Shown here one piece after another: positions 492-20,718 of a stretch of 64,000 nucleotides of DNA; positions within the stretch are counted from its first letter, which is position 1; each line of letters starts with the position of its first letter. This DNA is from Subtercola sp. (GTDB lineage Bacteria; Actinomycetota; Actinomycetes; Actinomycetales; Microbacteriaceae). The notes under the pieces are model-generated. The model did no database searches and was not told the origin of the DNA. It saw only the letters and a list, made by a program, of their open reading frames with translations. Where the stretch lies: positions 1 to 64,000 of the forward strand of contig JAODBB010000001.1 of assembly GCA_025463745.1 (NCBI GenBank), written 5' to 3'. A program made the translations under genes and the position numbers.

Positions 492-1460
492 TCAGTTCGA
501 CGCTGTGACCTGGGCTTCGATGGTCTTCAGCAGGTCGCGCAGCTTCGGCCCATCGAAACCCTGCACGATCACCGACGTACCGTTCGACGCGGCGAGCACC
601 GAGTTGAGCACATCCGGGTCGTGGTAGAGGTCGGCGACCTTCTGGTAGATCGGGTTGTTGATGTCGGCCGCGCGCACCACGATGAGGTTGATGTAGGGCT
701 GGGCGCCGGGCGCGTTCGGGTCGTCGGCATACAGGGCCGACTTCGGGTCGATCTTGGCGTCGAGCACGTAGTTGCCGTTGACAACGGAGCCGTCGACCGA
801 AGCCATTGAGAGCACCGTCTGCGCGGCATCGACGGTGACGACCTTGACCTTCGAGTTCGCCGCGTCGATGTCGGCCGGAGTCGGGGCGAACTTGTCGCCC
901 GTGAGCTTCAGGAGGCCTGCGGACTGCAGCACGAAGAGGGCCCGCGACTGGTTCGATGGGTCGTTGGGGATGGCGATGGTGCCTCCCTGGGGGATGTCGG
1001 CGAGTGTCTTCCACTTCTGCGAGTAGAGGCCGAGCGGCGAGATCAGAGTCGATGCGATGGGCTCAAGGTCGTTACCGGTGTCGACGTTGTACTGCGACAG
1101 GAAGCGCAGGTGCTGGAAGATGTTCATGTCGATCTGGCCCTGCTCGAGCGCGGGGTTCGGCTGGCTGTAGTCGCTGAAGTTGACCGGCTCGATATCGATG
1201 CCTTGGGCGAGCGCCTTCTCTTTCAAGATGGCCCAGTACGGCTGGCTCGAGTCGGAGGTGCCGATCTTCACCACGATCGGAGCGGCCTCGGCCGACTTCG
1301 GTGCGGTGATGTTCACGATGATGAGAACGGCGGCGACGATGATGGCGACGGCCACGACGACGATGCCGACGATCCATCCGGTGCGGTTGCGCTTCTTCTC
1401 GGGACGCTTGGGCGGCAGCTGCGGCGCCGGCGTTGCGGCGCCGTCGATGGTGTCAGACAT
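492..1460 (-). CDS. metQ: MetQ/NlpA-family substrate-binding protein with N-terminal membrane anchor
   Basis: The protein is a 322-residue periplasmic-type binding protein of the NlpA/MetQ family, probably feeding methionine or an organosulfur relative to MetN. Residues 28-50 form one long hydrophobic segment after a basic stretch (KKRNR). There is no lipobox cysteine, so it seems to be a signal-anchored protein rather than the usual lipoprotein. The binding domain starts near residue 62 (VVKIGTSD) and shows family features such as QPYWAILKEKA and IAIPNDPSNQSRAL. The open frame extends upstream to 2117, but that part opposes a real gene and lacks the family start; ATG at 1460 gives the normal length. 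It is divergent from a monooxygenase operon, which suggests sulfur scavenging. Confidence 0.87.
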   Translation of the reverse strand: MSDTIDGAATPAPQLPPKRPEKKRNRTGWIVGIVVVAVAIIVAAVLIIVNITAPKSAEAAPIVVKIGTSDSSQPYWAILKEKALAQGIDIEPVNFSDYSQPNPALEQGQIDMNIFQHLRFLSQYNVDTGNDLEPIASTLISPLGLYSQKWKTLADIPQGGTIAIPNDPSNQSRALFVLQSAGLLKLTGDKFAPTPADIDAANSKVKVVTVDAAQTVLSMASVDGSVVNGNYVLDAKIDPKSALYADDPNAPGAQPYINLIVVRAADINNPIYQKVADLYHDPDVLNSVLAASNGTSVIVQGFDGPKLRDLLKTIEAQVTASN

Positions 1461-3173: not shown

Positions 3174-4429
3174 TGGCGGAGCTCGCCGACGTGGCTGCAA
3201 CGACGCAAGCGCCCACCGACGCCGAGCTACTCGAGCGGTTCCGCCCGGTCTTCGCGCGCATCGCAGAAGGCGCTATCGAACGCGAGCAGGCGCGGCAGCT
3301 TCCGTTCGAGCAAATCGAGTGGCTGCGGGAGGCCGGCTTCGGCACCGTTCGCGTGCCCGTCGAGTACGGCGGGCTCGGCGCCACCCTGACTCAGACTGTG
3401 CGGCTGCTCATCGAACTCGGCGAGGCCGACTCGAACCTGCCGCAGGCCCTGCGCGGGCATTTCGCCTTCGTCGAGGGCCGGCGCCGAGCGCACGACGAAG
3501 CCTCGCGCGCGTGGTGGTTCGAAGCGATCACAGACGGCGTGCTGGTGGGCAACGCGATGGCCGAACGCGGCCCTGAGACCGGATCCACGGCGGTCGTCAA
3601 GGAGAGCGCCGATGGCAGCCTGACCCTCTCGGGCACGAAATATTACAGCACAGGCACGATTTTCGCAGACTGGGTGATCACCTCGGCGAAGCTCGACGGC
3701 GAGCACGTCACCGTGCTCGTGCCCACCACCGCCCGCGGCGTCACGCGCGTCGACGACTGGGCCGGATTCGGGCAGCGGATGACCGGCAGCGGCACTACGG
3801 TCTTCGAGTCCGTCGTGGTGAAGCCCGAACACATCATCCGCCTGACGACGGATCAGGCCATGGAGCACGCCAGCACCGTCGCGTTTTTCCAGACGGTGCT
3901 CATGTCAGCCCTCGCCGGGATCAGCCGGGCCGTGCTGCGGGATGCAGTTGCCTTCGTGCGTCCACGCACGCGGCACTTCGGTGTGGTGGGAGCATCCAGC
4001 CCCCGTGCCGATCCGCTGGTACAGCGGGTCGTGGGGCGGCTCTCGAGCCTGTCGTTCTCGGCCGAGAGCAACGTGCTCGCCGTGGCGGCCAAGCTCGACG
4101 CCATCGACGAGGCGCGGGAAGCCGGGGTTGAGACAGACGAGGTGCACGTGCAGGCGGCGCTCGCGGCTTTCCGTGCGCAGCAGATCGTGCTGCCCACCGT
4201 TCTCGAGGCGACAACACTGCTCTTCGAGGTCGGCGGCGCGTCAGCGACAGACACCGATCGTGTACTCGACCGCCATTGGCGAAACGCCCGCACGATCGCC
4301 AGCCACAACCCCGCGATCTCGCGGGAACAGGCGATCGGCGACTACGAACTCAACGACGTCGTGCCGGTCGCGGGCTGGGTGCGGGCGACGCTGGCGCGGC
4401 GCGCGGAGGCCGAGACTCAAGCGGGTTGA
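3173..4429 (+). CDS. Acyl-CoA dehydrogenase-fold monooxygenase, SfnB/DszC-like
   Basis: A 418-residue flavoprotein with the acyl-CoA dehydrogenase fold, closest in character to SfnB and DszC, the flavin-dependent enzymes of sulfone and thiophene desulfurisation. Visible features are RVPVEYGGLGATLTQTVRLLIELGEADSN in the N-terminal helical domain (split here only for description), MAERGPETGSTAV near 125, LSGTKYYSTGTIFADW near 145 and a C-terminal helical region. No catalytic glutamate of true acyl-CoA dehydrogenases can be assigned. ATG at 3173 shares one base with the preceding TGA. Pairing with a DszA-type monooxygenase points to oxidative release of sulfur from an organosulfur compound; that is inference. 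Confidence 0.8.
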   Translation: MAELADVAATTQAPTDAELLERFRPVFARIAEGAIEREQARQLPFEQIEWLREAGFGTVRVPVEYGGLGATLTQTVRLLIELGEADSNLPQALRGHFAFVEGRRRAHDEASRAWWFEAITDGVLVGNAMAERGPETGSTAVVKESADGSLTLSGTKYYSTGTIFADWVITSAKLDGEHVTVLVPTTARGVTRVDDWAGFGQRMTGSGTTVFESVVVKPEHIIRLTTDQAMEHASTVAFFQTVLMSALAGISRAVLRDAVAFVRPRTRHFGVVGASSPRADPLVQRVVGRLSSLSFSAESNVLAVAAKLDAIDEAREAGVETDEVHVQAALAAFRAQQIVLPTVLEATTLLFEVGGASATDTDRVLDRHWRNARTIASHNPAISREQAIGDYELNDVVPVAGWVRATLARRAEAETQAG

Positions 4430-4444
4430 GTCACGACTTTTGCA

Positions 4445-5797
4445 CTACGAGTCTGTCGGCGGCGCGATGGCGGGCGTGGCCCTCAAGGCGTTGACAGCCC
4501 TGTCTGCGACAACTTGGGCGTCGCTTCCAGAATCGAGGATGGTATTTCGAGCTGATTCGGAATCGACCATGACGGCCGTAACGTCGAGGTCGTCCGAAGC
4601 CCCGGTCGTCAGCAGAGCATCCACCTGAGCGGAGAAGGCGGAGCCACTCGACGTGGCGTGAACGTCCATCGCCACCACGTGGTTGTTGGTGACGTAGTTG
4701 CCACTGCCCGCCATCAGCCGGATGATGACAGGCGTCGCACCAGGTGGACGGATGCTCTGTGAGTCGATGACCTCGGAGAAGTGGTTACCGATGATCGAAT
4801 TGTTGCTGCCGCTGACACAGAGAAGTCCGTAAAGGTCGTCCAGTCCGTTGTCTACTCCCAAGAAGGGCGTCCAGGGCTCGTGGTCACGCAGGAAATGATT
4901 CGACGCCACGAGGTTCTCCGAACTGTTCGCTGCGAGAACCACCATCCCCGGGTAGAACGAATGCAAGCGGTTACTGCTGAGGCTTGAACGCGTGACGCCA
5001 TTGAGACAAACACTGCTCGCACCACGGGGAAAGATGTTGTTGGCGGTGATCAAAAGGCCGCCATGGTTCTCGACATAGATCGAGTGACCCTTGAAGCCTG
5101 CTCCGATCAGATTGTCGGTGATCTTCGATGCCTGTCCCCACCCACGCAACTCGATGCAGCTTCCGCATTCGGCAATGAAGTTGTCGTGAACGGAGAGCGC
5201 GTCTGCGTTGTAGATCGTCAAAGCATGCTCGAGGTAGACGAACCCCATGCCGGTAATGCGGAACGAGTCATTGGCGTTCGCGACATAGATACCCGTCTTC
5301 CCGTTGACATAGGTGTTCTCTGGATGCAGCTCCGAGCCGTCTGGGTTGAAGTGCAACCCGTCGATGCAGAAGTTCGAGAACTCGACCGAGCTGATCCGCG
5401 GGCTCCCGCTTCGCTCAATGGAGAAGGCGGCGCCCGTGGACTCCTCCGACCCTCGGCCGAGGGGAATGTCTACGAGAATGCGACTGCCTCCGGGCCACAG
5501 CTCGTGCAAGTCGGGCCATTCGTCTTCGGGAACGTTGAACCGGATGCTCGACGACGTAAAGCCGTGTCCCGAGCCCTCGATTCTGAGGAAGCTGATGTCG
5601 ATTACCACCTGCGTGCGCAGGTGGTAATCCCCGGGCGGAATGTAGATCACCGCGCCCGGCTTTCCGCCCATATTCTCATCGGTGGCTGCCTGTCGGCTCT
5701 TGATGTCAGCGATGATGCTGTTGAACACCTCACCGATGTCCTCGGCCGGATCACCGATGGGCCATGTCGTCACGTCGTAGTAGTTGGCGCTTGGCAT
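4445..5797 (-). CDS. Intracellular beta-helix enzyme, probable difructose anhydride hydrolase (IFTase paralogue)
   Basis: A 450-residue right-handed parallel beta-helix protein of the inulin fructotransferase (IFTase) family. It opens with YYDVTTWPIGD and shares GAVIYIPPGDY, GSGHGFTSSSIR and NFIAECGSCIEL with the two IFTases at 12.5-14.9 kb. Asp199 and Glu210 have the 11-residue spacing that I recall for the family's catalytic Asp/Glu pair. It is about 50 residues longer than its two paralogues, with insertions near residues 90-125 and near 380-405, and has no signal peptide. Known difructose anhydride III hydrolases are cytoplasmic relatives of IFTase, so a DFA-opening role fits, producing inulobiose for the GH32-like enzyme upstream. 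An IFTase activity cannot be excluded. It is the last gene of the seven-gene operon. Confidence 0.78.
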   Translation of the reverse strand: MPSANYYDVTTWPIGDPAEDIGEVFNSIIADIKSRQAATDENMGGKPGAVIYIPPGDYHLRTQVVIDISFLRIEGSGHGFTSSSIRFNVPEDEWPDLHELWPGGSRILVDIPLGRGSEESTGAAFSIERSGSPRISSVEFSNFCIDGLHFNPDGSELHPENTYVNGKTGIYVANANDSFRITGMGFVYLEHALTIYNADALSVHDNFIAECGSCIELRGWGQASKITDNLIGAGFKGHSIYVENHGGLLITANNIFPRGASSVCLNGVTRSSLSSNRLHSFYPGMVVLAANSSENLVASNHFLRDHEPWTPFLGVDNGLDDLYGLLCVSGSNNSIIGNHFSEVIDSQSIRPPGATPVIIRLMAGSGNYVTNNHVVAMDVHATSSGSAFSAQVDALLTTGASDDLDVTAVMVDSESARNTILDSGSDAQVVADRAVNALRATPAIAPPTDS

Positions 5798-11990: not shown

Positions 11991-12052
11991 CGTTACTCCG
12001 ATTTCGTTATGTGTAGCTGTTTGGGCCACTCGTGGATCATCTTATGGGTGCT

Positions 12053-12077
12053 AAAACGTTTTGACAAAACGTATTGG
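12053..12077. promoter_or_regulatory. Two adjacent LacI-type operator candidates
   Basis: AAAACGTTTT at 12053-12062 is a perfect 10-bp palindrome with the central CG typical of LacI/GalR sites. CAAAACGTATTGG at 12065-12077 is a degenerate copy only three bases away. They lie just downstream of the minus-strand -10 element, over the expected transcription start of the binding-protein operon. Confidence 0.65.
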
Positions 12078-12122: not shown

Positions 12123-12138
12123 GCCAAAATATTTTGGC
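12123..12138. promoter_or_regulatory. Perfect 16-bp palindrome, LacI-type operator candidate
   Basis: GCCAAAATATTTTGGC is a perfect inverted repeat midway between the divergent promoters, about 23 bp upstream of the plus-strand -35 element. It shares the AAAA/TTTT half-sites with the other three sites in this intergenic region but has a TA instead of CG/GG centre. Confidence 0.6.
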
Positions 12139-12223: not shown

Positions 12224-12244
12224 ATTCGAGAGAGAGGCACAACA

Positions 12245-12430
12245 ATGAAAATCACTGAAGTCGTCGTCAGTCGCCGCTCCGTGTTGTTCGGAATGGGTGC
12301 AGCCACGGCCGCAGTCGCCACGCTGAACAACACGGAGGCCGCTCGTGCGTCGGCCCTTCGGGAATCGCCATCGGCTCAGCAGGGCGCGGCCGTGCCGCCG
12401 AGAAAGAATGTGCCGGTCGGCCTGCTCTGA
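12245..12430 (+). CDS. Stand-alone 61-residue Tat signal peptide ORF
   Basis: This short frame encodes a textbook twin-arginine signal peptide: SRRSVLFGMG at residues 9-18, a hydrophobic stretch to about 27, and AARASA near 32-37 as a cleavage site. It continues for only about 25 residues and stops at TGA (12428-12430). An AGAGAGG box precedes the ATG. The following fructotransferase is in a different frame and has its own ribosome-binding site at 12471, so the two are separate as written. Secreted relatives of that enzyme normally carry such a signal at their N-terminus. It may be the detached signal peptide of the next gene (frameshift decay or sequencing indel) or a real small secreted peptide. 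Confidence 0.62.
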   Translation: MKITEVVVSRRSVLFGMGAATAAVATLNNTEAARASALRESPSAQQGAAVPPRKNVPVGLL

Positions 12431-12470
12431 GCTCAGAGTCGCGCTGAATCCGATTCGCAAGGGAGCGAAT

Positions 12471-13655
12471 ATGACTACCGTTTACGACGTGACCGACTGG
12501 ATCATTCCAGGAAGCTCCGTTACGTGCTACACCGACATCGGAGCGGTCATCAACAGCATGATCGCGGATATCAAGTCGCAGCAGCCCAGCCAGGCCGCGA
12601 AGCCCGGAGCAGTCATCTACATTCCGCCCGGCGACTACTCGTTGAAGACCCGGGTCACCGTTGACGTCAGCTACCTGTCGATTCGTGGTTCGGGTCACGG
12701 CTTCACCTCTCTGGGTATCAGGTACGCGACCTCAGACACCTCGGCATGGCATGAGATCTGGCCGGGCGGAAGCCACATCAGGGTGGAGAACACAGACGGG
12801 AATGTTGAGGCTTTCATTGTCACGCGCTCGGGCAACCCCCGGCTCAGCAGCATCGAGTTCGAAGACTTCTGTCTGGATGGCATCGCGTTCGTGCCGAATC
12901 AGAATTCATACGTCAATGGAAAGGTCGGCATCCGCTTCGACTCGGCTACCGACTCAGCCCGCGTCAACAACATGGGGATGGTCTTTCTCGAACACGCCAT
13001 CGTCGCCCGAGACGTCGATGCGATGAGTATCACCGGCAATTTCTTGTGCGAATGCGGCAATGCCATCGAATTGACGAGCTCAGGTCAGGCGAGCACGGTG
13101 ACGAACAACCTGATCGGAGCGGGCAACTTCGGCTACTCCATATTCGCCGAATCGCACTTCGGGCTCTTGGTTTCGGGCAACAACATCTTTCCCCGCGGCA
13201 AAGATCTCGTTCATTTGAAGAACTGCTCGCTCTCCATCGTCACCTCCAACCGACTGCACAACTTCTACGCGGGCATCGTGACCCTCGAAGGAACCTGCAC
13301 TGAGAACCTGATCACGGCCAACCACTTCTACCGGGCGACAGAATCCACGAGCAATGGACTCGACGACCTCTTCGGGCTCGTGCAGATCAATGGCAGCAAC
13401 AACAGCGTCACGGCGAATCACTTTTCATTCGCGGTGCCGCCGGGTCAGATCACTCCGAGCGGAGCAACCCCCACGATCATCCTGGTCAAATCGGGTGACG
13501 GAAATTCGCTTGCCACCAACCACATCGTCGCGGGAGTGAGCGTCAAGACCGTCGTACTCGATGGCTCGACGACGAACACCCACATTCTCGATAGTGGTAC
13601 GACTGCCGAGCTGCAGGCGTATTCGACGAGCTACAGCTTCCGTCCCACCCCCTGA
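12471..13655 (+). CDS. Inulin fructotransferase (difructose anhydride-forming), copy 1
   Basis: A 394-residue parallel beta-helix enzyme of the inulin fructotransferase family (EC 4.2.2.17/4.2.2.18), which cuts terminal difructosyl units from inulin and cyclises them to difructose anhydride I or III. The mature-type N-terminus VYDVTDWIIPGSS is followed by GAVIYIPPGDYSLKTRV, GSGHGFTS, and Asp183/Glu194 at the family's 11-residue catalytic spacing in the DAMSITGNFLCECG region. ATG at 12471 has a GGGAG box. No signal peptide is encoded in frame; the frame is open back to 12345 but that extension is basic and not a signal. Which anhydride it makes cannot be told from sequence. Confidence 0.87.
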   Translation: MTTVYDVTDWIIPGSSVTCYTDIGAVINSMIADIKSQQPSQAAKPGAVIYIPPGDYSLKTRVTVDVSYLSIRGSGHGFTSLGIRYATSDTSAWHEIWPGGSHIRVENTDGNVEAFIVTRSGNPRLSSIEFEDFCLDGIAFVPNQNSYVNGKVGIRFDSATDSARVNNMGMVFLEHAIVARDVDAMSITGNFLCECGNAIELTSSGQASTVTNNLIGAGNFGYSIFAESHFGLLVSGNNIFPRGKDLVHLKNCSLSIVTSNRLHNFYAGIVTLEGTCTENLITANHFYRATESTSNGLDDLFGLVQINGSNNSVTANHFSFAVPPGQITPSGATPTIILVKSGDGNSLATNHIVAGVSVKTVVLDGSTTNTHILDSGTTAELQAYSTSYSFRPTP

Positions 13656-13686: not shown

Positions 13687-14889
13687 ATGCCCAACGTCTA
13701 CGACGTCACCGACTGGAGTATCCCGGGAAGCAGTGTCACCTGCTATACCGACCTGGGCGCGATCATCAACAACATGATCGCCGACATCAAGGTTCAGCAG
13801 CCGACACAAGCCTCGAAACCCGGCGCGGTCATCTACATTCCGCCGGGAGACTATTCCCTGAAGACCCGCGTGGTTGTAGACATCAGTTACCTCTGCATCA
13901 AGGGGTCTGGTCACGGGTTCACTTCCTCGAGCATCCGGTACAACTCGGGCAGTACCACGGGCTGGGCCGAGATCTGGCCGGGCGGAAGTCACGTTCGGGT
14001 CGAGAACACCGATGGCAACGCCGAAGCATTCATCGTGACCCGAACAGGCAACCCGCGCCTCAGCGGCATCGAATTCGAGAACTTCTGCCTCGATGGGGTT
14101 TCGTTCACATCCACTCAGAATTCGTACACCAACGGCAAGGTCGGCATTCGTTTTGCCAGCGATACCGACTCCGCCCGCATCAGCGGCATGGGCATGGTCT
14201 ACCTCGAGCACGGTCTCGTTGCCAACAATGTCGACGCCATGAGCGTCACCGACAACTTCATTGCGGAATGCGGCAACTGCATCGAACTCACCGGCGCCGG
14301 CCAAGCCACCAAAGTAACGAACAACGAGATCGGCGCGGGCTTTCATGGCTACTCGATCTTCGCGGAAGGGCATCTCGGCTTACTCGTCGCGCAGAACAAC
14401 ATCTTCCCTCGGGGCAAAGACTCCGTGCATTTCAAGAACTGCTCTCTGTCGAGCATCACGGGCAACCGGATGCACGCGTTCTACCCGGGCATGATCACGC
14501 TCGAAGGAACCTGCCCCGAGAACCTCATCAGCGGCAATCATCTGTATCGTCAACCCGAGACGTACGGACCCTTCCAGAGCTCCAACAACGGACTCGACGA
14601 CCTGTTCGGCCTCATCCAGATCAACGGCAGCAACAACAGCGTCATCGGCAATCATGTGTCGTTCAACGTCGCCGCCGGGTCGATCACTCCAAGTGGATCG
14701 ACTCCGACGATGATCTTGGTCAAGTCGGGCGACGGCAACTACCTCGCATCAAACCATTTCACCGCGAGCGTCTCGGTCAAGACCGTCGTTCTAGACGGCT
14801 CAACCACAAACACTCACGTTCTTGACAGCGGTACGGCGGCCCAGCTTCAGGCGTATTCGACCAGCTACGGGTTCAGGGCAACGCCTTGA
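13687..14889 (+). CDS. Inulin fructotransferase, copy 2 (tandem paralogue)
   Basis: A 400-residue tandem paralogue of the preceding gene, 31 nt downstream, with an AAAGGAG box before ATG 13687. By hand count the first 200 residues are about three-quarters identical to copy 1. The catalytic-type Asp183 and Glu194 are kept (DAMSVTDNFIAECG). It also lacks a signal peptide. An insertion near residue 295 (QPETYGPFQSSNNG) distinguishes it. Tandem copies may differ in product (DFA I versus DFA III) or in substrate chain length; that is inference. Confidence 0.86.
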   Translation: MPNVYDVTDWSIPGSSVTCYTDLGAIINNMIADIKVQQPTQASKPGAVIYIPPGDYSLKTRVVVDISYLCIKGSGHGFTSSSIRYNSGSTTGWAEIWPGGSHVRVENTDGNAEAFIVTRTGNPRLSGIEFENFCLDGVSFTSTQNSYTNGKVGIRFASDTDSARISGMGMVYLEHGLVANNVDAMSVTDNFIAECGNCIELTGAGQATKVTNNEIGAGFHGYSIFAEGHLGLLVAQNNIFPRGKDSVHFKNCSLSSITGNRMHAFYPGMITLEGTCPENLISGNHLYRQPETYGPFQSSNNGLDDLFGLIQINGSNNSVIGNHVSFNVAAGSITPSGSTPTMILVKSGDGNYLASNHFTASVSVKTVVLDGSTTNTHVLDSGTAAQLQAYSTSYGFRATP

Positions 14890-15061: not shown

Positions 15062-15125
15062 ATAATCGTTGACTGCATTAGACCTGCCCGCTGGGGGCCG
15101 GGCACAAGACGTTGGAGGCAACACC

Positions 15126-16658
15126 TTGCATATTGCCGACTGGACAGTTCTGGCCGCGTATTTCGTGGTCATGATACTTATTGGCACCTGGGCGCGACGT
15201 CGAGTGAAGAACTCGAGCGACTATTTCACGGCGGGTGGCAAGCTGCCGTGGTGGCTCGCCGGAATCTCGCATCACATGTCGGGTTACAGTGCGGCTGTTT
15301 TCGTGGCCTATGCCGCAATCGCCTACACCAATGGTTTCGCGCTCTACGTGTGGTGGGCGCTCACCGTCGTCGTCGCCTGTGTCGTCTGCGCGTTCGTCTT
15401 CGCTCCTCGCTGGCCCCGAATGCGAATTCGGCTGCACATCATCTCTCCGCTTGAGTATTTGGCCATTCGATTCAACGTACCGACCCAGCAACTTCTTGCC
15501 TGGAGCGGCACAGTGCTCAAGGTGTTCGATGTCGGCGCTAAGTGGACAGCCAGCGCCGTGCTCCTCAATGTCTTCGCAGGCGTGCCCCTTGTGACAGGCA
15601 TTTTGCTCACCGGTGGTGTCACTCTGATCTATTCGACCGTCGGTGGTCTCTGGGCCGATGTGCTCACTGACTTCGGGCAATTCATCATCCAGCTGGTCGC
15701 CGGTCTCACGATGTTCTTCGTCGTGATGTTCAACCTCGGTGGTGTATCCAGCCTGTGGACCGTATGGAACCAGCTGCCGCCTTCGCATTCACAACCGTTC
15801 AGTGGGCAATATTCGCTGTGGTTCTTTCTCGCATATTGCCTGATCTCGACTGTCTCTTATAGCGGCGGTACCTGGAATCTGGCCCAACGATTCATCGCGT
15901 CACCGAGTGGATCGTCCGCTCAAAAGGCAAGTCTGCTGTCGGCCGGCCTGTACCTCGTGTGGCCGTTCATCTTGTTCTTCCCGATGTGGGCCGCTCCGAT
16001 CATCCTGCCGAACCTGACAGACCCGTCACAGTCGTACGCCCTTCTCGTCACACACTTCCTGCCCCAGGGCCTCGTCGGTCTGGTGCTCGCCGGGATGTTC
16101 TCGCACACCATGGCGATGACGTCATCAGACGCCAATGCCATCTCAGCGGTCGTCGTTCGCGACATCATTCCGGTACTCACCAAGAGGCGTCCGACGAAAG
16201 ACAGTAAAGTCGAGCTCACCGCCGGCCGTGTCTCAACCGTATTGTTCATCGGATTGTCGATGCTCATCGCGCTCAACTCCTCGTCGTTCGGGGGTGTTAT
16301 CGGTCTGCTCATTCTCTGGTTCGGTGCCCTCGTCGGCCCGATCGCGATACCCATGCTGCTCGGGATGCTCCCGGTGTTCCGGCGGTCTGGCCCGACGGCG
16401 GCCATTGTGTCGTGGGCGTGTGGTCTGGTCGTATTCGCCCTCACCAAATATGTGGTGTTCGGTTGGCTTGCCACCTTCGGCGACGCTACCCAAGCAATCA
16501 CCGTGGCTGCTCCGATCGTCACCTCGATCATTGTTTTCATCGGTATCGGCTTCGTCAAACCGTGGCACAACGAGGCTTCAGAGCGTCTGCTCGACACGAT
16601 CAATGCGCCAGAACTCGATGGTGCCGCAGTGCGTGAAGATGTGGCGGTCAGCGTATGA
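15126..16658 (+). CDS. Sodium:solute symporter (SSS family), probable amino-sugar/sialic acid-type uptake
   Basis: A 510-residue integral membrane symporter of the SSS family with about 13 hydrophobic segments. Family markers are SDYFTAGGKLPWWLAGISHH near 30-50, GGLWADVLTDFGQFIIQ near 175-190 and a late SGGTWNLAQRF motif. I chose the TTG at 15126 because GGAGG lies seven bases upstream and TM1 starts at once; a longer frame from TTG 15069 is possible. Its end overlaps the epimerase gene (ATGA). Being first in an operon with AGE, NagA- and NagB-like enzymes, it probably imports an N-acyl amino sugar. The exact substrate is unknown. Confidence 0.84.
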   Translation: MHIADWTVLAAYFVVMILIGTWARRRVKNSSDYFTAGGKLPWWLAGISHHMSGYSAAVFVAYAAIAYTNGFALYVWWALTVVVACVVCAFVFAPRWPRMRIRLHIISPLEYLAIRFNVPTQQLLAWSGTVLKVFDVGAKWTASAVLLNVFAGVPLVTGILLTGGVTLIYSTVGGLWADVLTDFGQFIIQLVAGLTMFFVVMFNLGGVSSLWTVWNQLPPSHSQPFSGQYSLWFFLAYCLISTVSYSGGTWNLAQRFIASPSGSSAQKASLLSAGLYLVWPFILFFPMWAAPIILPNLTDPSQSYALLVTHFLPQGLVGLVLAGMFSHTMAMTSSDANAISAVVVRDIIPVLTKRRPTKDSKVELTAGRVSTVLFIGLSMLIALNSSSFGGVIGLLILWFGALVGPIAIPMLLGMLPVFRRSGPTAAIVSWACGLVVFALTKYVVFGWLATFGDATQAITVAAPIVTSIIVFIGIGFVKPWHNEASERLLDTINAPELDGAAVREDVAVSV

Positions 16659-17977
16659 CCGTCGCTGGTCTGTCGACGAGAGCCCGCCGGAAGGCAGATG
16701 CGGAATTCGACCTCGAGCACTTGAACTCGCAGATTCTGCCCTGGTGGTACGAGAACGGTGTCGATGACGTTTACGGAGGCGTTCTGACGTGTTTCGACAA
16801 CAACGGCGAACTGCTTTCAACCGACAAGTACACCTGGAGCCAGGGTCGCTGGGGCTGGCTGATGGGAAGAATTTCGCTGGCCGGGCGGTCAGGGCTCGAG
16901 GTCGACGGGTGGATGCTCGCGACCGAACGGGCGGCGAAGACAGCTGACTTTCTCTGCGCCAATGTCATTCTCGAGGGAGGTGTCACGGCCTACCAGACCA
17001 CCAGGGAAGGAACCGTGATCGAGCAGTCGACGCCTCCGGGGGCGGTACACACCAGTGTGTATTCCGACCTGTTCACGGTTCTCGGGCTGGCCGGAGCAAT
17101 CGCGGCCGTTCATGAGGAGCCGGCGGATTCGAGTATTCGTGTCAACGAAGGCGAATGGGCACGCCGAGCCACTGAGGTTCTTCTGTCGGCAAGCCGGCGG
17201 ATCGAATCACGCACGGCCATGACTGAGCCGTATCCCGTGCCGCAAGGCATGACCAGCCTTGGCGAACAGATGATGTTGGTGAATGCTGCGAGCGAGCTCT
17301 GGAGGGCGACGCGATCCGCGCAGACAGAGGAGGTGGTGTTGCACTGGGGAAGTAAGCTTGTCGCCGCCGCGCGGGCGAACCTCCCTGGCTTGCCGGGTGA
17401 CTTCGCGCTGATCGGCCCCGGCGGCTCCGGCGGCTCCGGCGAGACGCTCTTGACTGGGCACCGAACTCCCGGCCACATTCTCGAGCTCCTCTGGTTTCTG
17501 GAAGATGCGGCGAGCGAGCTTCCATCATTGAAGCGAATGCTCGGGGAGTGGGTTCCCGCTCTCGCTCTCAAGGCGCTGGAGCTCGGCTGGGACGACAGAG
17601 ACGGCGGGCTGTTTCGCTACGTGCACCGCAGCGGCGGCGAGCCACGGGGTGAACGTGAGGGCGGCCGCTACGAAGAGCTCGTGCAGAGAACGTGGTCGAC
17701 CAAGTTGTGGTGGCCGCAGGTTGAGGCGATCTACGCTACCTCGGTGCTCGCGACCACGTACGAGTCCACTGAACTGTGGGAATGGAACGACAAGCTTCGT
17801 GCATACGCGTTTGCGACGTTTCCTGCCCCCGGGAATCAGGAATGGATCCAAATCAGAGACAGATCCGGCCGGCCGCTCAACGAAGTCGTCGCCCTCCCCG
17901 TGAAAGACCCGTTTCACATTGCTCGGGCGCTGCTTCTGAGCGCCCAGTGGATAACAACGAAAGGCACATCCAATTGA
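16655..17977 (+). CDS. AGE-family sugar epimerase/isomerase (N-acylglucosamine 2-epimerase-like)
   Basis: A 440-residue (alpha/alpha)6-barrel protein of the N-acylglucosamine 2-epimerase family. It shows WWYENGVDDVYGGVLTCFD near 29-47, WSQGRWGWLMGRI near 60, GHRTPGHILELLWFL near 265 and the C-terminal RTWSTKLWWPQVEAIYA. These are the paired Trp/His-rich substrate-site strips of the family. It overlaps the symporter by four bases. In this operon it probably interconverts an N-acylglucosamine with its C2 epimer. AGE members also act on mannose and cellobiose, so the substrate is inferred from context. Confidence 0.82.
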   Translation: MTVAGLSTRARRKADAEFDLEHLNSQILPWWYENGVDDVYGGVLTCFDNNGELLSTDKYTWSQGRWGWLMGRISLAGRSGLEVDGWMLATERAAKTADFLCANVILEGGVTAYQTTREGTVIEQSTPPGAVHTSVYSDLFTVLGLAGAIAAVHEEPADSSIRVNEGEWARRATEVLLSASRRIESRTAMTEPYPVPQGMTSLGEQMMLVNAASELWRATRSAQTEEVVLHWGSKLVAAARANLPGLPGDFALIGPGGSGGSGETLLTGHRTPGHILELLWFLEDAASELPSLKRMLGEWVPALALKALELGWDDRDGGLFRYVHRSGGEPRGEREGGRYEELVQRTWSTKLWWPQVEAIYATSVLATTYESTELWEWNDKLRAYAFATFPAPGNQEWIQIRDRSGRPLNEVVALPVKDPFHIARALLLSAQWITTKGTSN

Positions 17978-18753
17978 CTGAAGCTGTAACGTCACATCAC
18001 ACTGTCGACCTCCTGACTGTCGATGTGAGTGATGATCGTGCCGCACTGGGCGCAAGCGCTGCGTCGGCAATCGCGGATTCGCTGATTGAGATGCTCGCGC
18101 AGCAGGAATCAGTCCGGATCGTTTTCGCTGCGGCACCGAGCCAGACGGAGACGCTCGAGGCTCTCGCCGGGATGGAGGAGATTGCGTGGGAGCGGGTCGA
18201 CGCCTTCCACATGGACGAATATGTCGGCATCGGAATAGACGTTTCGCAACGGTTCGGCAATTGGCTGAGAACCGCTTTCTGCGACCGCGTTCCACTGCGT
18301 TCCGTCTCCTTCATCGACCCCGACGGTTTGGGCGCCGACGACCCCGTGAAGGAAGCGCGCCGTTACGCTGCGTTGCTCGAAGAGCAACCGATCGACGTCG
18401 TGCTTTCGGGCATTGGGGTCACCGGACACCTGGCGTTCAACGATCCGCCTGTCGATTTCAGTGAAACGCAGATCGTGAAGGTCGTCGAGCTTGAGGAGGC
18501 GAGCCGGCAACAGCAGGTCTCTGAGGGCCTCTTCATGCGGCTCGCAGACGTTCCGAATCGCGCATGGACTATCACGGTGCCACCCCTTCTTTCAGCACGA
18601 GCTGTTTTCTGCATGGTTCCGGGACAGCTCAAACGCGCTGCCGTGCTCCGTGCGTTGAGCGGCGAGATCGGTGCGGATTCTCCGGCAAGCGCCTTACGCA
18701 TGCACCCGAACGCTCGATTGTTTCTTGATCGCGATTCGTCTCCGTTCCAATGA
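17974..18753 (+). CDS. NagB-like glucosamine-6-phosphate deaminase homologue with altered active site
   Basis: A 259-residue protein of the NagB/6-phosphogluconolactonase fold. The start is TTG 17974, which overlaps the upstream TGA; GAAAGG lies nine bases upstream. HMDEYVG puts Asp81 at the place of E. coli NagB Asp72. The signature normally GxDGHIAFNEP reads GVTGHLAFNDP, so the residue aligned with Asp141 is Thr150 and Glu148 is Asp157, while His152 is kept. The spacing 81-150-152-157 exactly matches 72-141-143-148. It may be a divergent deaminase or act on a different amino sugar phosphate. It sits two genes upstream of nagA. Confidence 0.75.
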   Translation: MTEAVTSHHTVDLLTVDVSDDRAALGASAASAIADSLIEMLAQQESVRIVFAAAPSQTETLEALAGMEEIAWERVDAFHMDEYVGIGIDVSQRFGNWLRTAFCDRVPLRSVSFIDPDGLGADDPVKEARRYAALLEEQPIDVVLSGIGVTGHLAFNDPPVDFSETQIVKVVELEEASRQQQVSEGLFMRLADVPNRAWTITVPPLLSARAVFCMVPGQLKRAAVLRALSGEIGADSPASALRMHPNARLFLDRDSSPFQ

Positions 18754-18796
18754 ATCAGCCGCGACGCACTCACACAAGCACCATTCAGCATCAGCC

Positions 18797-19579
18797 ATGC
18801 CCAGCAATGAAAGAGACGAACTGTTGACCAGCTACTCCAAGACCTATCTGAAATCGATCAGTGCGCTGCTTCACCGAATCGACGAAGAGGAAACGAGCGC
18901 GATCGATGCGGCTGCCTCGCTTCTGGCCGACCAGATCGCCAACGACCGACTCATCTGGATCTACGGTCCTGGGGGTCATTCAAACCTCGCCGCCCAAGAG
19001 ATCTTCTTTCGCGCGGGAGGGCTGATGCACGTCTCGGCGATTCTCGATGAAGGCACCCTGCTGTCGAACGGCGCGTTGCGGTCGATGGCTATCGAGCGTA
19101 CGCCCGGTTATGGACGGATAGTGATTGAGAATACCGGAATCGGAGCAGGCGATCTGCTTATCCTCGTGAACGCGTATGGCATCAACGCGGCACTGATAGA
19201 CGCAGCTCTCGTTGCGCACGAGCGCGGCGTGCGCACCATCGGTATCAGTTCCCGGGCCCATGCGACCGAGACTTCGCCCGAGCATCCTGCCCGGCACCCC
19301 TCGCGTTCGAACCTGCACGATATCGTCGATGTCGCGATTGACACAAAGGTGGCGATCGGTGACGCAGTGGTCGAGCTGCCGAACATCACCGAGAAGGTGG
19401 GTGCGGTGTCGACCTTCGCAAACGCGTTCACTCTCAACCTTCTCGTTCTTCGCACTCTCGAACTGGTCACCGAGCGCGGAATCGTGCCGCCAATCTGGCG
19501 AAGCGGCAATGCCCCGGGCGGGGATGAGGCCAACGAGAGGTTCCTGGGCGAATTCCGGAGCCGAGTTCCATGGCTGTGA
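18797..19579 (+). CDS. SIS-domain phosphosugar-binding protein
   Basis: A 260-residue sugar isomerase (SIS) domain protein. The nucleotide-like loop WIYGPGGHSNLAAQEIFFRAGG near 55-75 and the second half LILVNAYGINAALIDAAL near 119-136 are typical. The C-terminal VPPIWRSGNAPGGDEAN is common in SIS proteins next to nagA-like genes. I chose ATG 18797; no strong ribosome-binding site precedes it, and TTG 18824 is an alternative. The stop overlaps nagA. It might be a phosphosugar isomerase, a deaminase component or a non-catalytic sensor. Confidence 0.78.
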   Translation: MPSNERDELLTSYSKTYLKSISALLHRIDEEETSAIDAAASLLADQIANDRLIWIYGPGGHSNLAAQEIFFRAGGLMHVSAILDEGTLLSNGALRSMAIERTPGYGRIVIENTGIGAGDLLILVNAYGINAALIDAALVAHERGVRTIGISSRAHATETSPEHPARHPSRSNLHDIVDVAIDTKVAIGDAVVELPNITEKVGAVSTFANAFTLNLLVLRTLELVTERGIVPPIWRSGNAPGGDEANERFLGEFRSRVPWL

Positions 19580-20718
19580 CGTGGTCAGGCCGTGAACCCG
19601 CGACGGGCGATGTTCTCGAGGTCTCAGCAGTCGGGGGCATCATCGTGGGAATCCGGCGCTTCCCGCATCGCCTCACGAACGACCTGCCCTGGCTGACCCC
19701 GGGTCTCATCGATCTGCAGGTGAACGGCTACCGAGGCTTCGACGTGAATGCTGAAGAGCTCTCTGTCGAGACGTTGATGGGGCTCCGCGAATCGTTGCTC
19801 GAGGGCGGCGTTACTACCTTCGTACCGACCGTCATCACCAACTCACGAGAGCGGATTTCATTTGCGCTGCAGACGATTTCCGATGCACGTTCTCGGGAAC
19901 CGGTGCTCTCCAGGGCCATCCCGTTCGTGCACCTCGAAGGGCCGTATATCTCTGCCGAAGAAGGCCCAAGAGGTTGTCATGACGAAGCGTGGATCCGGCC
20001 ACCAGACCTGGATGAATTCACCTCGTGGCAGAAGCTCAGCTCGAATTTGATCGGCATGATTACGGTCTCGCCGCACTGGCCGCAATCAGCGAAGTTCATC
20101 GCAGCCGCGCGGCGACTCGGGGTTCGGGTTGCGGTGGGCCATACCCATGCTGCACCCGCCGAAATACGGGCTGCAGTCGATGCCGGCGCGTCATATTCGA
20201 CGCACTTGGGTAACGGGGCGCACGCTCTCATCGTCAGACACCCGAACTATCTCTGGACTCAACTTGCCGATTCGCGCCTGACTGCGGGATTTATTTCTGA
20301 CGGGCATCATCTCTCGAAAGACGCATTCGCCGTCATGCTGAGGGCGAAGGGAATCGGAGGTTCGTTTCTGGTCTCCGACTCAGCGGCCCTTGCCGGAATG
20401 CCGCCCGGAAATTATCACGCAGCTGTCGGGGGTGATGTCGAAGTCACGGATGACGGGCGTCTCGTTTCTCTTGGCACTCCCTATCTGGCGGGAGCGGCCG
20501 CGTCTCTATCCGACGGTGTCGCTCGTGCCCCCGGGCTCGCGTCGATCACTCTTGCCGATTCCGTGGCCCTCGCCACCGTGAACCCAGGTCGCGTCATCGA
20601 CGCGATCGAGCCGCCCGGCCAGTTGCGAATAGGTGCCAGCTCCGACCTCATGACGTTTCGGTGGCAGCCTGGCGACACCGAGTTGCACGACATACAGTGC
20701 GAGGCGGCGGCCAGATGA
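19570..20718 (+). CDS. nagA: N-acetylglucosamine-6-phosphate deacetylase
   Basis: A 382-residue amidohydrolase of the NagA type (EC 3.5.1.25), removing the acetyl group from GlcNAc-6-phosphate. Order of motifs: TPGLIDLQVNGYRGFDVN near 40-57, HLEGPYIS near 118 with the metal-binding Glu, GHTHA near 196, HLGNGAHAL near 216, SDGHHL near 240 and VSDSAALAG near 263 with the catalytic Asp. The start overlaps the SIS gene by ten bases and the stop forms ATGA with the next gene. It provides the deacetylation step for the operon. Confidence 0.88.
   Translation: MAVTWSGREPATGDVLEVSAVGGIIVGIRRFPHRLTNDLPWLTPGLIDLQVNGYRGFDVNAEELSVETLMGLRESLLEGGVTTFVPTVITNSRERISFALQTISDARSREPVLSRAIPFVHLEGPYISAEEGPRGCHDEAWIRPPDLDEFTSWQKLSSNLIGMITVSPHWPQSAKFIAAARRLGVRVAVGHTHAAPAEIRAAVDAGASYSTHLGNGAHALIVRHPNYLWTQLADSRLTAGFISDGHHLSKDAFAVMLRAKGIGGSFLVSDSAALAGMPPGNYHAAVGGDVEVTDDGRLVSLGTPYLAGAAASLSDGVARAPGLASITLADSVALATVNPGRVIDAIEPPGQLRIGASSDLMTFRWQPGDTELHDIQCEAAAR

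Follow-up and report, generated by a model that had tools for sequence, protein, structure and literature searches.

A stand-alone twin-arginine signal ORF as a proposed export escort for signal-less inulin fructotransferases in Actinomycetota

A small open reading frame (ORF) directly upstream of an inulin fructotransferase gene in Subtercola sp. is proposed to encode a 61-residue dedicated export escort of the twin-arginine translocation (Tat) route, which would act in trans for an enzyme without a signal peptide of its own; we put the probability of this reading at about 0.74. The ORF lies in a stretch of 64,000 nt (hereafter the window), positions 1 to 64,000 of the forward strand of contig JAODBB010000001.1 in assembly GCA_025463745.1, a draft of 253 contigs. 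In the proposed mechanism, the N-terminus of the escort would be the twin-arginine signal and its middle part a short linker, while its tail, [ILV]-G-[VLM]-[LI]-COOH, would dock on the folded, signal-less inulin fructotransferase encoded by the neighbouring gene. The Tat translocase would then draw the escort-enzyme complex out of the cell, and inulin breakdown would take place outside. We also consider it probable, if with somewhat less confidence, that such stand-alone "signal peptide genes", providing a Tat signal in trans through a four-residue C-terminal docking tail and having no carrier domain, exist in many actinobacterial families.

The small ORF (12245..12430, + strand) starts with the ATG at 12245, stops with the TGA at 12428-12430 and is preceded by a purine-rich ribosome-binding site, GAGAGAGAGG, at 12228..12237 (+), confirming the original prediction of a 61-codon Tat ORF with its own ribosome-binding site and stop. 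A linker joins the Tat-type N-terminus of its product, SRRSVLFGMGAATAAVATL, to the C-terminus ...PPRKNVPVGLL. A twin-arginine motif, SRRSVLFGMG, occupies residues 9-18 (twin-arginine codons of SRRSV at 12272..12277, +) and is followed by a hydrophobic stretch, and A-R-A at residues 33-35 was picked out by eye as a candidate cleavage site. The codons of the tail V-G-L-L, the proposed docking motif on the grounds of its conservation, lie at 12416..12427 (+). The Pfam TAT_signal model scores 18.9 bits on the product, under the cut-off of 22.7. In a Pfam scan at E up to 1, only this sub-threshold match and a weak one to DUF1039 were obtained, with no homology to the tyrosinase helper MelC1.

The next gene, at 12471..13655 (+, 394 aa, ATG at 12471), encodes an inulin fructotransferase without signal peptide and has its own Shine-Dalgarno box, AGGGAG, at 12460..12465 (+). 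It matches Pfam PF18835 ("Beta helix repeat of Inulin fructotransferase") with E 4.4e-29, and its best PDB match is 9j4i, "DFA-III-forming inulin fructotransferase" (E 5e-132), with 2inu also matched; the predicted signal-less fructotransferase in a different frame and with its own box is thus borne out. A second copy at 13687..14889 (+, 400 aa; PF18835, E 8.5e-29) follows in tandem, is 75% identical to the first and has neither a signal nor a small ORF of its own. The N-termini of the two copies, MTTVYDVTDW and MPNVYDV, both begin at the YDV block that opens the family alignment. We take the family to be GH91, following listings in papers. The second signal-less copy and the PVGLL tail of the small ORF both go beyond the original prediction. 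In the window, either one escort must serve two enzyme copies or copy 2 must remain inside the cell; the escort probably serves both, and the two enzymes may form different products (DFA I or III) or work in different places. TatC is encoded in the window's genome. A DFA-IIIase-like gene of the same family, without signal or small ORF, at approximately 4667..5797 (-), served as an intracellular-type control. Because genes for a PfkB kinase, a GH32 hydrolase, a LacI regulator, an ABC permease, a solute-binding protein and a sodium:solute symporter surround the fructotransferases, the locus is assigned to fructan use. The region 3' of the fructotransferases (window 15069-20718) contains the sodium:solute symporter gene, GlcNAc-2-epimerase-like and NagB-like genes and, by eye, SIS- and NagA-like genes, and an amino-sugar gene set thus adjoins the fructan locus.

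Among 299 genomes of the window's family, enzyme matches were found in 11 and fructotransferase-type enzymes in six, including that of the window, and all six of these genomes have a separate Tat ORF directly upstream that ends in V-G-L-L or V-G-V-L. A GTDB genome scan confirmed 256 loci, the best 80 of which were used in the comparisons. An order-wide sample of 396 genomes contributed loci L104-L106, L109, L111, L113 and L114, a phylum-wide sample of 396 genomes gave no additional fructotransferase, and a plasmid search returned one close relative (96%) in an unannotated record. The detector for small ORFs accepted reading frames of up to 100 aa with a start codon, an RR pair and a hydrophobic stretch, provided that they ended no more than 350 nt upstream of the beginning of the matched enzyme region and no more than 30 nt past it; the C-terminus was ignored. 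Loci represented twice (L005 = L020, L007 = L042) were counted once among the 59 compared rows. Three detector calls were discarded by eye, namely a "fused" signal at window copy 2 caused by an arginine-rich upstream frame, an out-of-frame ORF in L063 and an extra upstream ORF in L029.

A separate Tat ORF was found directly upstream of 51 of the 59 fructotransferase-type genes from Actinomycetota (with the GTDB part limited to the best 80 of 256 loci), an arrangement in which, as in Tat hitchhiking, a conserved Tat-signal partner gene stands beside a signal-less enzyme. Six of the remaining eight genes have a fused Tat signal and two, window copy 2 and L114, have neither. The small ORF of L060 is partly masked; its tail reads IGVV by eye, and it is counted in the 51 and stands outside the 50 readable cases. 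These 50 are 49 distinct sequences, L045 and L105 being an identical pair, and the start codons of some (L067, L069) are uncertain. L114 (genome G910, a MAG of 450 contigs) encodes a very divergent fructotransferase with a tree branch of 2.42, without a fused signal or an identifiable small ORF; a short RRRVLIAT stretch seen upstream by eye may be a decayed ORF.

The tail [ILV]-G-[VLM]-[LI]-stop is present in all 50 readable small ORFs, although it played no part in their detection. Glycine is invariant at position -3 (50/50), position -1 is L in 46 and I in four, position -2 is V in 27, L in 19 and M in four, and position -4 is I in 22, V in 16 and L in 12; further upstream, -5 is L or I in 40 of 50 and -8 is H in 29 of 50. 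The tail codons vary synonymously, with glycine encoded by GGC (38), GGT (5), GGG (4) and GGA (3). Clustering of the enzymes of these 50 ORFs gives 32 groups at 90% identity and 22 at 80%, and the small ORF of every cluster representative has the tail. By comparison, 50 sources (the window and 49 loci) contain 26 further small ORFs with a Tat-like start and a Shine-Dalgarno box, all of them lacking the tail; among 3157 ORFs of at least 45 aa it occurs in 52, and 42 of the sources carry one of the small ORFs found upstream of fructotransferase genes. The non-tail part of the small ORF drifts, with a mean column identity of 28%; RR is invariant in the 48-row alignment A3, a residue pair that the detector itself demands. 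A Shine-Dalgarno-like box precedes 46 of the 50 ORFs, the choice of start having favoured its presence. In 16 of 16 close pairs, chosen by hand, dN/dS was below 1 (0.12-0.81), which shows purifying selection on the small ORF in these pairs.

The recurrence of the split bears directly on one option of the original prediction, that of a frameshift or assembly error, and on the wider explanation that a frameshift, or a sequencing or assembly error, had detached the signal from an intact fused precursor. The window does come from a draft of many contigs, and fused Tat precursors exist in six relatives. However, the split occurs in 51 loci from many families, with the enzyme in relative frame 0, 1 or 2 at 10, 18 and 22 of 50 loci and with differing stop codons on the small ORF (TGA 28, TAG 12, TAA 10), and the tail is absent by eye from the six fused precursors. 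The comparison with related genomes that had been proposed as a check was thus made, and because the relatives share the split, the window copy is not an assembly error; we give this explanation practically no weight and reject it. Programmed frameshifting or read-through uniting signal and enzyme in one chain is likewise extremely improbable. In the window the enzyme frame is open across the intergenic stretch, as such a mechanism would allow, yet the three relative frames and the differing stops speak against it, as does the finding that 49 of 50 enzymes have a candidate start codon of their own (called by script, some doubtful). Relative frame and stop context both vary over the 50 loci, unlike in programmed frameshifting of the prfB type. 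It is the occupation of three frames by the relatives that leads us to reject frameshift, assembly error and programmed frameshift alike.

The strongest argument that the small ORF serves enzyme export is its tie to the fructotransferase type of enzyme and its absence where a Tat signal is fused. The tailed ORF was found at none of the six fused genes (L051, L054, L059, L062, L063 and L106), whose N-termini lack a G-x-L tail by eye, and at none of 49 DFA-IIIase-type loci, which likewise have no fused signal; one of the latter has a chance TTG ORF without the tail. These 49 loci were assigned by length and similarity, many are from other phyla and 19 are in the tree. One DFA-IIIase is also reported, in PMC4640833, to be without signal peptide. 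A maximum-likelihood tree was built from 78 rows by a quick method, with SH-aLRT as its only support measure; it has several long branches and 27 open forks. In it a fully supported branch sets the 19 DFA-IIIase-type rows apart from the others, and the six fused rows form two groups among the trans rows, namely L062/L063/L106 and L051/L054/L059 (Streptosporangiaceae). The solved enzymes 9j4i and 2inu belong with the former, L062 scoring 750 and 741 bits against them. The trans/fused label changes twice on the tree, as against five changes for the trans group versus all other labels. On the sequences compared, the separate ORF thus appears to accompany the fructotransferase type and to be absent where the Tat signal is fused, and separate ORF and fused signal seem to have exchanged at two places on the enzyme tree.

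The matched parts of the trans-type enzymes span about 388-406 residues without a signal, apart from L064, which matches over 284 only. The solved enzyme with the best match differs among the trans members; for L067 and L111 it is PDB 8hsn, "Fructotransferase" (665 and 471 bits), presumably a DFA-I-forming Streptomyces enzyme. When trans and fused enzymes were compared for a docking patch, just four positions (window S74, T79, S319 and V358) proved constant in the former and altered in both groups of the latter; they are scattered in the sequence and too few for such a reading.

In the window's family, profile searches indicate, within their limits, that the tailed small ORF is tied to fructotransferase genes. 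A first profile built from 48 ORFs had some match in 247 of the 299 family genomes because Tat signals are common, and six matches reached the last model position, all of them, among the matches listed, beside fructotransferase genes. Since these six were rows of the profile or identical to rows, a second profile was built without them (42 rows, still including the nearby relatives L021 and L036). At E up to 1e-4, this held-out profile gave 50 matches in 41 of the 299 genomes. Four of the 50 reach the tail, and these lie beside the fructotransferase genes of G000, G084, G116 and G226, while the other 46 end at position 59 or earlier and are mostly the starts of long ORFs. At E 1e-4 this profile failed to recover G042 and G113, two of the six cases already known from the family, and the search scores only about 20 candidates per genome.

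A divergent promoter separates the small ORF from the solute-binding protein gene, and 5' of the small ORF this region contains a LacI-type operator-like palindrome, GCTAAAACGTTTTGAC, at 12050..12065, with two mismatches to GCCAAAACGTTTTGGC. A second LacI-type palindrome, GCCAAAATATTTTGGC, is seen by eye at 12123-12138 in the same divergent promoter. At 37 of 49 loci the 250 nt on the 5' side of the small ORF contain a LacI-type site with at most three mismatches, as against none of 49 controls; the consensus GCCAAAACGTTTTGGC was chosen from these same loci, and the controls were stretches inside the enzyme gene. Because such sites lie 5' of most small ORFs, the data fit the small ORF being the first gene of a regulated unit. 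The distance from the small ORF to the matched enzyme region is 11-211 nt in the 50 readable cases, with a median gap of about 42 nt. In Rathayibacter L042 (= L007) a plausible enzyme start, by eye, is a GTG overlapping the stop codon of the small ORF, which suggests translational coupling there. Shortness, upstream position, close spacing in many loci and this overlap would also be expected of a regulatory leader ORF governing translation of the enzyme. Such a role is nonetheless very unlikely, since the spacing is so variable, the amino acids are kept while codons vary, the Tat architecture is retained and dN/dS is below 1 in all pairs.

Another view is that the small protein is a secreted signalling or accessory peptide, whose C-terminus would act outside the cell independently of enzyme export. 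The conserved short hydrophobic C-terminus and the location behind LacI-type sites agree with it. We nevertheless judge it quite unlikely, as a pheromone would not be expected to be missing beside fused-Tat genes, the enzyme would be left without an export route even though one relative is reported to be extracellular, and Tat would be an odd choice for a peptide without folded cargo. The Tat route transports folded cargo. A folded beta-helix enzyme would need it and a short unfolded segment would not.

The original prediction had also considered that the enzyme is now cytoplasmic or that the peptide works separately. The former is disfavoured by a DFA-I-forming relative that lacks a signal and is found in the supernatant, and by the six fused genes without a tailed ORF. 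The latter is supported; the mechanism had not been part of the prediction, and the evidence points to export of the enzyme in trans. A related idea, that the small protein is a cytoplasmic or membrane chaperone or anchor which folds the enzyme or tethers it to the membrane without translocation, is in our estimate unlikely: a conserved tail suits binding as such, and an uncleaved Tat signal could tether, but relatives lacking the ORF have fused Tat signals and an enzyme of the same family occurs in the supernatant without a signal.

The proposed escort has precedents in other Tat systems. In the MelC1/MelC2 tyrosinase of Streptomyces, a helper with a Tat signal exports the signal-less enzyme by hitchhiking, according to PMC2758597, and there, as here, the helper gene comes first, the gene of the signal-less enzyme second, and the Tat signal is on the helper. 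MelC1 is also needed for copper incorporation, unlike anything proposed for the small ORF, whose product has hardly any carrier body beyond its signal, linker and short conserved tail. The gamma subunit of cepacia glucose dehydrogenase, described in PMC6719666 as a small Tat-signal protein on which the catalytic subunit depends to fold and be secreted, binds that subunit through an interface, as is proposed for the escort. It has a five-helix structure seen in a crystallised complex, whereas the length of the small ORF would leave little room for a folded domain behind the signal.

Within the fructotransferases themselves, PMC5448860 describes DFA-III-forming enzymes of Arthrobacter sp. H65-7 and A. 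globiformis C11-1 with signals of 32 and 40 residues. These belong to the same family with the signal in cis, whereas in the window the signal is a separate gene product. For the DFA-I-forming inulin fructotransferase of A. globiformis S14-3, the same paper reports an extracellular enzyme of 392 residues and no signal peptide, and this enzyme resembles the trans type in length and in the missing signal. The earlier view that the known relatives carry N-terminal signals for secretion thus holds for the two DFA-III-forming enzymes and fails for that of S14-3. A small Tat ORF ending in G-[VLM]-[LI]-stop is predicted upstream of the S14-3 gene.

If the proposal is right, it would account for signal-less fructotransferases leaving the cell, a point that PMC5448860 leaves unexplained. 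It would also offer a short candidate tag for exporting folded proteins via Tat with the N-terminus untouched. Prediction of signals gene by gene would label such enzymes cytoplasmic. The small ORF is not described in the titles or abstract openings found on fructotransferase signals in the open-licence literature. If the proposal is true, the escort, with some four to eight tail residues behind its signal and linker, would to our knowledge be the smallest Tat hitchhiker carrier.

AlphaFold2 models were obtained for two natural read-through chains as monomers, with few alignment rows for the small-ORF part. In L041 the 10-residue blocks of the enzyme scored 76-99 and small-ORF residues 1-77 had pLDDT <50; in L061 the enzyme blocks scored 47-98 and residues 1-12 and 15-89 had pLDDT <50. 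The tail is unplaced in both models.

In addition, a scan of the loci found TatA-like genes (PF02416) at two places only, with E 1.1e-15 and 2.7e-12, at about 1245-1424 (-) in L008 and at 3312-3569 (-) in L021. In G226 the gene lies between the fructotransferase and the DFA-IIIase, and in L021 it lies upstream of the small ORF on the opposite strand. A TatA-like gene within a fructotransferase locus could possibly encode a dedicated translocase subunit.
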